A DNA stretch of 64,000 bases from Candidatus Synechococcus calcipolaris G9 (GTDB lineage Bacteria > Cyanobacteriota > Cyanobacteriia > Thermosynechococcales > Thermosynechococcaceae): assembly GCF_029582805.1 (NCBI RefSeq), contig NZ_JAKKUT010000001.1:124001-188000 (forward strand). Reading direction: 5' to 3'. Positions 3,871-57,436 of this stretch are shown here, one piece after another. Positions within the stretch are counted from its first letter, which is position 1. Each line of letters begins with the position of its first letter. Made by a program: the position numbers and the translations under genes. The notes beneath the pieces are model-generated. The model was given only the letters and a program-made list of their open reading frames with translations. It ran no database searches and was not told where the DNA came from.

Positions 3871-4093
3871 GCATCCCAGCCATCGCTCGCCACTCAATAG
3901 CATCATATTTCTGACGCAACCCATCTGGTAACTGTTTGACAGCTTCACCGATTACTTCAATACTACAAACGTAAGCGCGCTTCAGCGTTTCATCTTACAC
4001 AAATTTCGCCTTGTCTAAACTCGTAGAACTCGCCATGATGTAGGTTGTTTCATCAAGAATGTGCTGTAAGTATTCACGAGCCAAGGGAGACAT
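3854..4093 (-). pseudogene. Broken HepT-like (DUF86/HEPN) toxin gene
   Basis: Translating the minus strand from ATG 4093 gives MSPLAREYLQHILDET, typical of the DUF86/HepT start. An in-frame TAA follows at 3997-3995, after codon 32. The same frame then resumes as DETLKRAYVCSIEVIGEA...EWRAMAGMRD, the classical HepT middle. At about 3870 the coding similarity stops and beta-helix sequence begins. HEPN toxins need an R-x4-6-H motif, which in this family follows directly after GMR(D/N); the Arg is present but the His part is gone. The gene is therefore doubly dead: nonsense codon plus 3' replacement. Its start overlaps the MntA-like gene by 20 bp, the usual operon arrangement. Confidence 0.85.
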
Positions 4094-4397
4094 ACTCGAC
4101 CTCATCGAATATACGCGGACCAATATAAGGACTTAATGATTCTATCGTGATGAGGTCAACTGCTCTACCAAAAATATCCTCTAGAAAAAAAGATAGGTGT
4201 ATAAAGTTATCAAACGTTTTCTGGGCTGGCTCAAAAGCAACCAAAATATCAACATCACTTTGAGGGTGAATTGCAGTGTCACGGGCAAATGAGCCGAAAA
4301 CACCGCATCGTCTCACTCCCAAACGGTGTAACTCCTGGTGATACTCGTGGAGCAGAGCTAGTACTTGGGCTTTCATTTGTACTGGCATCGTTTGCAT
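4074..4397 (-). CDS. MntA-like minimal nucleotidyltransferase antitoxin
   Basis: 107 residues with the minimal nucleotidyltransferase signature GSFARD...SDVDILV. The spacing between GS and DxD is 11 residues, one more than the GSx10DxD usually quoted for MntA. The C-terminal half (DNFIHLSFFLEDIFGRAVDL, GPRIFDEVEYV) matches the family. MntA enzymes adenylylate and silence the HEPN toxin HepT, whose gene follows directly but is broken. This is therefore an orphan antitoxin that may persist because it is harmless. The ATG at 4397 gives the standard length. Upstream lies an attC-like site, so the pair may once have been a mobile cassette. Confidence 0.85.
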   Translation of the reverse strand: MQTMPVQMKAQVLALLHEYHQELHRLGVRRCGVFGSFARDTAIHPQSDVDILVAFEPAQKTFDNFIHLSFFLEDIFGRAVDLITIESLSPYIGPRIFDEVEYVSLGS

Positions 4398-4483: not shown

Positions 4484-4573
4484 GCCCAACGACCCTGCGT
4501 TTGTGCTGCGGGGCGACCAAGTCTGAAGTTAAGCAAAAAATGCAAACCCGTCAGCACGAAACGCTTGTTAGCG
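4484..4573 (-). other. attC-like recombination site (candidate integron cassette end)
   Basis: On the plus strand, GCGTTTGTGCTGCGGG (4497-4512) pairs with CCCG (4547-4550), CAGCAC (4552-4557) and AAACGC (4559-4564). This makes a 16-bp stem broken only by unpaired T4551 and G4558. Such a stem with two extrahelical bases on one arm is the hallmark of a folded attC bottom strand. The outer boxes are GCCCAAC (4484-4490) and GTTAGCG (4567-4573). On the minus strand these read CGCTAAC...GTTGGGC, fitting or nearly fitting R'' RYYYAAC and R' GTTRRRY. The site sits 11 bp past the stop of the AbiJ-like gene, and the arm carrying the extrahelical bases implies the same orientation as that gene. No integrase IntI is in the window. 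Confidence 0.55.
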
Positions 4574-4584
4574 ATCTGCTGGAA

Positions 4585-5445
4585 TTATAAGTTACTTTTT
4601 ATTTTTGCTTGTTTACTACTCAATAAGTTAATAAAAGCACTGCATGACACAATCATAAACAATGCATCTTCTTGATCTAAATTGTCAGCGTCAAGTAAAG
4701 CATGTCTTATTCCATCTGCATCACTTGTGTACCCATATAAACTTGAAAATGCTTTCAGTAAAGCAGGGTGAATTGTCTTATTATTTTCAATAATCTTTAA
4801 TGCTTCTCCAAGTGTTGCCTTATCTTTATTAGCAATTTGTTTACAATGTGCTTCTACAGCGCTTATTGCTTCTTTAATTGAATTTCTATAATCAGGGTTT
4901 ACTCTATCAGAGATAAGTTTTAGCGCGGATTTCAGATGAATCTGAATAGAGTTAGTTAAAGATTTATTATTTAAAGAATTTTCAATGGATATAATCTCTT
5001 CTTCGTTAGTAATTGGTGTAATTATATCATCTACAAATCGATATCCAGATAATTCAATTTTTAATACTTCATTAACATACTGTATGAATTTCTCATTGGT
5101 TTTGTTACCTGAATAGAGTTCTGTAAAATAATTTGGTAGTATTTCTATAAAATTATAAACCTCGTACCATTGGGCAGAGAAAAAATACTCTTTTAGATAA
5201 CTTTTGATAAGATAAGTTTGAGATGATAACTCGTCAATTCTATTTTTAAAATAGTATACCCATAAGCTATTAATCAATTGCACAAAATCAGAGTTATTAT
5301 CGTGAAAATAAAATGCATTAATCTTATTCAAGTAAAATATATTAACAGCATTCCATAGAGAGTTTCTGAGATTATCGTCTATTGAATCAATCTGTATTAC
5401 TGATTTTATAGGTGTAATTCCTAATCTTTCGGAAAAGCTTGGCAT
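4585..5445 (-). CDS. AbiJ-like abortive infection protein
   Basis: A 286-residue protein from ATG 5445 (MPSFSERLGITPIK); an upstream in-frame ATG at 5523 would add 26 residues read through a hairpin, so I prefer the inner start. The N-terminus (FSERLG...SIDDNLRNSLWN) matches the AbiJ N-terminal domain 4. The C-terminal third (AISAVEAHCKQI, LGEALK, HPALLKAFSSLYGYTSD, GIRHALLD) matches the HEPN-like C-terminal domain of these proteins, with a possible R-x-H core. AbiJ proteins are phage-defence factors thought to act by abortive infection. The gene is markedly AT-rich compared with its neighbours and is followed at once by an attC-like site, both signs of horizontal acquisition as a cassette. 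Confidence 0.75.
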   Translation of the reverse strand: MPSFSERLGITPIKSVIQIDSIDDNLRNSLWNAVNIFYLNKINAFYFHDNNSDFVQLINSLWVYYFKNRIDELSSQTYLIKSYLKEYFFSAQWYEVYNFIEILPNYFTELYSGNKTNEKFIQYVNEVLKIELSGYRFVDDIITPITNEEEIISIENSLNNKSLTNSIQIHLKSALKLISDRVNPDYRNSIKEAISAVEAHCKQIANKDKATLGEALKIIENNKTIHPALLKAFSSLYGYTSDADGIRHALLDADNLDQEDALFMIVSCSAFINLLSSKQAKIKSNL

Positions 5446-5537: not shown

Positions 5538-5834
5538 TAAAATTTATTTCCTAATCTGGATTGTAGCCATGCTAACACTCTGATTTTTAGGTGTCAATAT
5601 TGACTAAATAGCTGACATAAAAACTGCCAAAATTGGGATTTAAGCATGGTTGGTCAAGGGATTTGGCTGGTGGGGTAGGGCCTGTCATGTGGAACTTTAC
5701 CGTATAATGTGCCTATTTGGGATGAAATAAAGCGATTTGATGCATATATATCCTGGCGAAATTAGAATCAAAGAATCTCTGTTGTAACCATTTAGAGATT
5801 CACAAAGAATTAAGGATTTCAGGCAATCAATAGG
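5538..5834. other. Intergenic region with an inverted repeat before the cysteine desulfurase gene
   Basis: No open frame of note in about 300 bp. The clearest structure is an 8-bp perfect inverted repeat, GAATCTCT (5773-5780) and AGAGATTC (5794-5801), with a 13-nt spacer, 34 bp before the next ATG. It could be an operator or a 5'-UTR hairpin. I see no convincing IscR-type site, and the promoter cannot be fixed by eye. Confidence 0.4.
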
Positions 5835-55636: not shown

Positions 55637-55681
55637 CTAAAATTTTAGCCTAAATCGATGGAGAGTAGGGAACTCGAATCC
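55637..55681. repeat. Right att direct repeat
   Basis: Matches 41205-41249 with one mismatch and overlaps the last 22 bases of tRNA-Ala (55660-55681), so insertion leaves the tRNA intact. Confidence 0.85.
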
Positions 55682-55731
55682 CTGGCCTTCGCGGTGCGAT
55701 CGCGACGCTCTACCAACTGAGCTAACTCCCC
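55659..55731 (-). tRNA. tRNA-Ala (anticodon CGC)
   Basis: 73 nt without encoded CCA. Acceptor GGGGAGT pairs with ACTCTCC, including the G3.U70 pair that identifies alanine tRNAs. D-arm GCTC/GAGC, anticodon stem TCGCG/CGCGA with loop ATCGCAC (anticodon CGC), T-arm AGGGA/TCCCT with TTCGAGT, discriminator A. It reads alanine GCG. The anticodon stem-loop contains a HIP1 octamer. Its 3' end is the integration target, seven bases after psbP. Confidence 0.95.
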
Positions 55732-56355: not shown

Positions 56356-57246
56356 ATGTACTTAGTGACAGGCGCAACGGGTCAATTAGGGAGACGAGTC
56401 GTTCGGCGGTTGATTGCCTTAAACCAACCCGTTCGAGCATTTGTACGTCTTCGTTCTGACTATGACCTTTTGAAGCAGTGGGGGGCCGATATCTTCATTG
56501 GTGACATAGAAGACGTGCGTGATATTGAAAAATCCTATGCTGGGGTCAATTATGTGATTAGCTGCCATGCCAGCAAAATAGGCAGTAGTCGTATCCAAAA
56601 GATTGACTATCGTGGCACGGTGGATCTAATTGATCAAGCCAAAAGGAATGGCATCCATCACTTTAGCTTAGTGTCTCCCTTGGCGGTGGGGGGCGATCGC
56701 CAGGATTCACCCCTCTTAAAGGCAAAATATGAAGTCGAGTCCTATCTTCAGGGTAGTGGCTTGCCCTATACAATTTTTCGGCCAACGACTCTGATGTCCA
56801 GCTTATTGCCCTTGGCAGAACGATTTCAGCAAACCGGTGTTTATTTTTTGATTGGCAATCCTGAGCATCGCTTACAACTGACCAGTCCTGATGATCTGGC
56901 CCGGATTATGGTTGCCGCTAGTCAAATGAACATCACCCATGATCAAATCTTCTCCCTAGCCCATCCAACCGTGATGACCCGGCAAGAGATTCCAAAGCAG
57001 TTGGGCTATTTTTTCAATCGTCAGCCCTTTGTTGTTAATATTCCCATGGCAGCCATTGACGGGGCCCGCCATTTAATTGGTTTGATTAGCAGCGATCTTC
57101 AGACTGAAATGGGAACTCTACGTACCCTCCTCGCCTACGAGAGCCTCTGCCCTGACCCGGAAATTGAGCGGGTTGAAAAACTATTTAATATCCAATTAGA
57201 ATCCTTAGAGATTTTCTTAAATCGCTATTTGGGGATCGGAGATTAA
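56356..57246 (+). CDS. NAD(P)-binding NmrA/SDR-type protein (Ycf39-like)
   Basis: 296 residues from ATG 56356, preceded by AAGGGGG; a TTG five codons earlier is rejected. The Rossmann motif is TGATGQLGRRVVRRL. GDIEDVRDIEKSYAGVNYVI and RPTTLMSSLLPL are typical of atypical SDR proteins. Relatives such as Ycf39 help deliver chlorophyll during photosystem II assembly; the neighbour psbP is suggestive, but the identity is not certain. Confidence 0.82.
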   Translation: MYLVTGATGQLGRRVVRRLIALNQPVRAFVRLRSDYDLLKQWGADIFIGDIEDVRDIEKSYAGVNYVISCHASKIGSSRIQKIDYRGTVDLIDQAKRNGIHHFSLVSPLAVGGDRQDSPLLKAKYEVESYLQGSGLPYTIFRPTTLMSSLLPLAERFQQTGVYFLIGNPEHRLQLTSPDDLARIMVAASQMNITHDQIFSLAHPTVMTRQEIPKQLGYFFNRQPFVVNIPMAAIDGARHLIGLISSDLQTEMGTLRTLLAYESLCPDPEIERVEKLFNIQLESLEIFLNRYLGIGD

Positions 57247-57370
57247 GGCTGACCGCGACGCCGTTTTACCTCAGTTTATGACCTGGAAAACCAGGGGGGA
57301 TCCTTGGCACAGACGTATAGTTTCTGACAGCAAGGCCAGTATACCGCCGCCCACAACCGCAGTTCCCAAA

Positions 57371-57397
57371 TGTTTTGTAATTGTAGATCACAAAACA
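57371..57397. repeat. Inverted repeat between convergent genes
   Basis: TGTTTTGT (57371-57378) and ACAAAACA (57390-57397), an 8-bp perfect stem with an 11-nt loop, between the reductase and thrB stops. It could slow transcription in both directions but has no U-run. Confidence 0.3.
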
Positions 57398-57436
57398 ATA
57401 TTGGCAGTCACCAACGCCGTAGCACAACCTTAAAAC

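Follow-up and report, generated by a model that had tools for sequence, protein, structure and literature searches.

A very probable solitary gene cassette with an AbiJ-like gene, and scattered attC sites, in Candidatus Synechococcus calcipolaris G9

Integrons and their attC sites are already known from cyanobacteria (PMC8352920, PMC9668308), and a model of the cyanobacterial attC has been reported (PMC8352920). Single attCs without an integrase are also known, and IntegronFinder supplies terms for such arrangements (PMC9024848). Insertion of cassettes at attG sites has been described experimentally in E. coli (Loot et al. 2024, doi 10.1038/s41564-023-01548-y, as cited in PMC12444791), and integron cassettes with defence and toxin-antitoxin genes are the subject of papers in Science (2025) and Nature Microbiology (2025), likewise as cited in PMC12444791.

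The site considered here lies at 4484-4573 of the window and at 128484-128573 of contig C1; by the window we mean the whole 64-kb stretch of the G9 genome that was analysed. Since cyanobacterial attCs are known, this one site does not represent a new kind; it shares with them the order R''-L''-loop-L'-R', two extrahelical bases on the L'' arm and a position 3' of a cassette gene. It is also like the described solitary attCs and CALINs in being an attC without a nearby integrase. A CALIN takes at least two clustered attCs (the default of IntegronFinder 2 is two, PMC9024848), and as there is one attC in 64 kb, the site is a solitary attC and not a CALIN. Neither a functional intI nor an attI beside an array, as in a complete integron, was found at the cassette. 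The features of the site and its very probable cassette are as follows.

4484-4573, minus strand: attC site, 90 nt, assigned from geometry, fold and the score of model R2 (below)
4573-4567, minus strand: R'' box CGCTAAC, 5/7 against RYYYAAC, with AAC retained and two other letters off
4547-4564, minus strand: L'' arm, with extrahelical C (G4558 on the plus strand) and A (T4551 on the plus strand), six pairs apart
4513-4546, minus strand: variable terminal loop, 34 nt, from sequence
4497-4512, minus strand: L' arm, pairing completely with the L'' arm, from sequence and fold
4490-4484, minus strand: R' box GTTGGGC, 7/7 against GTTRRRY, with the G|TT cut position present
4585-5445, minus strand: AbiJ-like cassette gene; listed as an ORF from TTG 5523, likely start ATG 5445
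5487-5481, minus strand: cassette 5' end GTTAGCG, identical to the reverse complement of R'' and lying 36 bp ahead of ATG 5445
5486-4490, minus strand: whole gene cassette, 997 bp, with boundaries G5487|T5486 (5') and G4490|T4489 (3'); 30% G+C, against 49% for the window

A sequence-only reading of the window had proposed an attC-like site with a 16-bp stem, two unpaired bases and terminal GCCCAAC/GTTAGCG boxes, and all of these were found where it placed them, in both the sequence and the fold. On the plus strand the boxes occupy 4484-4490 and 4567-4573, and the stem joins 4497-4512 to 4547-4564 with T4551 and G4558 as the sole unpaired bases. Read along the minus strand, the order is R'', 2 nt, 6 bp, C, 6 bp, A, 4 bp and the 34-nt loop, followed by the bulge-free matching arm, 6 nt and R'. 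G4490 is the final base of the cassette, and the TTGGGC of R' derives from the recipient DNA. Folded as single-stranded DNA, the plus strand (the attC bottom strand) has a minimum free energy structure that is exactly the 16-bp attC stem, at -19.0 kcal/mol. The energy has a z of -2.15 and was equalled by 6 of 200 shuffles, so taken alone it is only mildly unusual. The geometry is far rarer. A descriptor comprising AAC, 8 nt, a bulge, 6 bp, a bulge, 4 bp and then GTT, scored at 12/12 stem pairs and 12/14 box letters, has a single occurrence on both strands of the window, and the same score was reached in 1 of 800 dinucleotide-shuffled 64-kb windows.

Two covariance models were used. R1 was built from seven attCs adjoining intI in relatives, with none from the G9 genome; it finds about 15 good attCs in that genome, and gives the window site 11.9 bits (E about 1, not significant). 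R2 was built from 29 attCs of the G9 genome and its relatives, with the window site left out, and scores 4484-4573 at 32.8 bits (E 4.8e-7), the second-best score in the window being 10.9. A covariance check of the kind proposed by the sequence-only reading thus came out in favour of an attC with R2 but not with R1, the model made from relatives only. Among 28 attCs, covariation in the R2 structure was 0.382 compared with 0.130 after shuffling (0/500), in an alignment that was fitted to the structure, which favours the score. R2 detects the window site only with its filters off, and both default cmsearch and the first whole-genome search missed it, so solitary cassettes of this kind are probably undercounted by default searches. 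With gathering thresholds, Rfam returned two features only in the window:

57246-57428, minus strand: 6S RNA
55659-55731, minus strand: tRNA gene

The mild fold energy (z about -2) and the R1 score are what one would expect of a chance hairpin, a terminator or some other structured element that merely resembles an attC. We consider this very improbable given the geometry and boxes, the R2 E-value, and the matching 5' boundary, orientation and distance to the gene described below; the lack of a T-run and the 34-nt loop also mean that this is not a usual terminator. The points that do count against the site are the R1 score, its detection by R2 only with filters off, the atypical R'' (CGCTAAC) and a spacer of 6 nt before R', at least one base more than the 2-5 nt of family relatives. 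The first extrahelical base (EHB1) is C, mostly G in those relatives, and the 34-nt loop lies within the 17-40 nt seen among related attCs.

The 5' end of an integron cassette bears a core site complementary to R''. At 5487-5481 the match to this rule is an exact 7-mer, at the predicted boundary, which together with R2 bears out the identification as an attC, and with both boundaries located the cassette is the minus-strand segment listed above. An exact R'' complement near the ORF start was found for 8 of the 25 attC-bearing ORFs in the G9 genome (window ORF included), where 1.4 were expected and the maximum in 2000 permutations was 5. When the circular site was rebuilt, its energy was -22.1 kcal/mol, compared with -17.2 in place, and all 7 R-box pairs formed. 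Another candidate for the 5' end, GTTAGCA at 5576, was rejected in favour of 5487, where the match is 7/7 and the spacing to the ATG is a usual one. At the other end the attC begins 11 nt past the stop codon (TAA, 4585-4587) in the orientation of the gene, the cassette-like arrangement that had been noted from the sequence.

The cargo gene had been called AbiJ-like, and its product contains a PF18863 domain (AbiJ_NTD4, E 9.1e-31) and matches PADLOC PDC-S32 (E 6.7e-109) over residues 25-306. The homologous part starts at about residue 25, which casts doubt on the listed TTG 5523; this start is probably wrong and ATG 5445 the likely one. With an N-terminal domain and a whole-length PADLOC match resembling those of AbiJ-like proteins, the product is probably a defence protein of the abortive-infection type. 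A paralogue with 45% identity lies elsewhere in the G9 genome (C2:928036-928890, contig C2), where no attC was detected; from its 5' GTTATAC and the GTATAA at the gene end, it may be a decayed cassette. No intact attC was found at the AbiJ homologues elsewhere (loci L040, L041, L123 and L042, the last being this paralogue), which counts against the preferred explanation given below. A search of the contig collection for relatives gave one, from Chryseosolibacter (46% identity, without an attC), and that of the plasmid collection a single weak match on a Leptospira plasmid.

An inverted repeat bordering an AT-rich foreign gene could also be a miniature inverted-repeat element or another transposon end. 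We find this hardly credible, since a DNA search of the G9 genome for the exact site gave no second copy beyond short chance matches, sequence varies among the sites while structure is common (attC-like, unlike MITEs), and no identical copies with target-site duplications were seen in relatives. As to other copies, which the sequence-only reading had asked after, the exact sequence is thus unique in the genome, but the structural type is abundant both there and in relatives. With this abundance and the R2 score, the outcome is not the one that reading had named as counting against it (a covariance score below threshold and no further copy in the genome or relatives).

In the 3.3-Mb G9 genome, R2 yields at least 44 attCs (43 plus the window site) at 27 places, 19 of which are solitary and the others clusters of 2-6 attCs. 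The genes preceding attCs include those for Avs2, a type II methyltransferase, an ATPase of the PtuA/HEC-04 kind, TIR, MazF, PIN and ParE. Defence and toxin-antitoxin cassettes, which the sequence-only reading had noted as known from integrons, are reported in the papers cited in PMC12444791 from Vibrio and mobile integrons, whereas here they are scattered in a cyanobacterium. A cluster of six attCs at C1:344757-350731 (L126) has no integrase and includes a HigA-like helix-turn-helix gene. An Avs2-like gene of 1420 aa (L135:5365-9627, minus strand, contig C2) ends 164 nt before an attC, and is possibly an unusually large, multi-kilobase defence cassette.

The window site had been described as far from any IntI gene, and in the G9 genome nothing derived from intI was found except an internally deleted pseudogene on a different contig:

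C2:1916359-1916550 (L001 1375-1815), minus strand: intI pseudogene with an internal deletion

It retains 63 residues at 76% identity to the IntI of a relative and then jumps to the C-terminal motif DIRTVQELLGHKDVK. Two attCs adjoin it upstream (C2:1918000 and 1918770), where there is also a TIR-domain gene, and together these are the remains of G9's own integron.

Family relatives carry full intI genes with attCs next to them, of the same type as the window site. In the family survey (E 1e-5) attCs were present in 20 of 29 genomes, so that the search among other cyanobacteria suggested from the sequence found the type in abundance; in the phylum sample (E 1e-6) they were present in at least 60 of 291, a lower bound because stricter filters were used. 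The attCs of three near-complete or single-contig relatives (G016, G018 and G026) are scattered as well, and a search of G016 and G018 for intI gave no match at a cut-off of E 1e-15. Since scatter is seen in near-complete family genomes, it is not an assembly artefact of G9. In the literature searched, we found no description of scattered attCs in Thermosynechococcus.

Our preferred explanation, held with high confidence, is that 4484-4573 is the attC of a solitary AbiJ-like cassette, probably inserted at a non-att site by an integrase that has since been lost. It is based on the attC anatomy, both boundaries, the foreign composition, the abundance of attCs of the same type and the deleted intI. 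Beside the cassette there is no attC or attI (R2 on the 64-kb window, with the sequence upstream of 5487 checked), and the nearest one detected elsewhere lies about 20 kb off. Immediately downstream, at 3890-4397 on the minus strand, are an MNT nucleotidyltransferase gene (PADLOC PDC-S09) and then what appears to be a disrupted HEPN partner that runs on into a truncated gene; this region has no attC of its own.

A real attC could also belong to the last survivor of an array, once a CALIN or an integron, that deletions and rearrangements have taken apart. The clusters of 2-6 attCs and the dead integron of G9 are in keeping with this, and the MNT gene (4397-4074) could be an eroded neighbouring cassette. 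We think this history somewhat doubtful, though far from negligible: no attC remnant was found upstream of 5487 or elsewhere in the 64 kb, and 19 solitary places among 27 is much for erosion alone to have produced. An empty site was sought in relatives. In nifS neighbourhoods of the family, the cassette flanks were not syntenic and were unmatched in the relatives' loci compared, and for three solitary cassettes in a sister genus, whose genome is rearranged, the comparison ran into breakpoints and rearrangements and gave no clean empty site. As none of these comparisons yielded an empty site, the preference for secondary-site insertion over array decay is inferred.

Under the preferred explanation of a cassette inserted at a non-att site, IntI would have cleaved the folded bottom strand (the plus strand, bulged at T4551 and G4558) at the G|TT position. 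The cassette circle would have borne an R' of GTTAGCG, able to pair 7/7 with R'', and would have entered a chromosomal non-att site, ...TAGTAG|TTGGGCTGC..., which before the insertion would have read, uninterrupted, ...TAGTAGTTGGGCTGC... Later loss of the integrase would have fixed the cassette in place, so that it stays put and its gene must rely on a local promoter, and an integrase supplied in trans could mobilise it again. The insertion site is probably attG-like, the simplest account being that one circle entered at a secondary G|TT site. The likeness to attG insertion, as far as the article citing that work describes it, lies in a lone cassette with G|TT borders at a position that is not an attI or an attC; the difference is that the one is an experiment in E. 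coli and the other a natural genome in which no empty site was found.

What matters more than the single site is the genome-wide scatter: 44 or more attCs spread over 27 places, in a genome whose integrase is defunct. It is possible, and we put it forward tentatively, that the integron of this lineage acted as a genome-wide distributor, setting single defence or toxin-antitoxin cassettes at many non-att sites that were frozen when the integrase was lost. If solitary cassettes were indeed placed by attG insertion, they would be natural evidence that integrons populate entire chromosomes with cassettes, many of which carry defence or toxin-antitoxin genes, and a lineage integron that worked as such a distributor would be a large-scale natural counterpart of experimental attG insertion.
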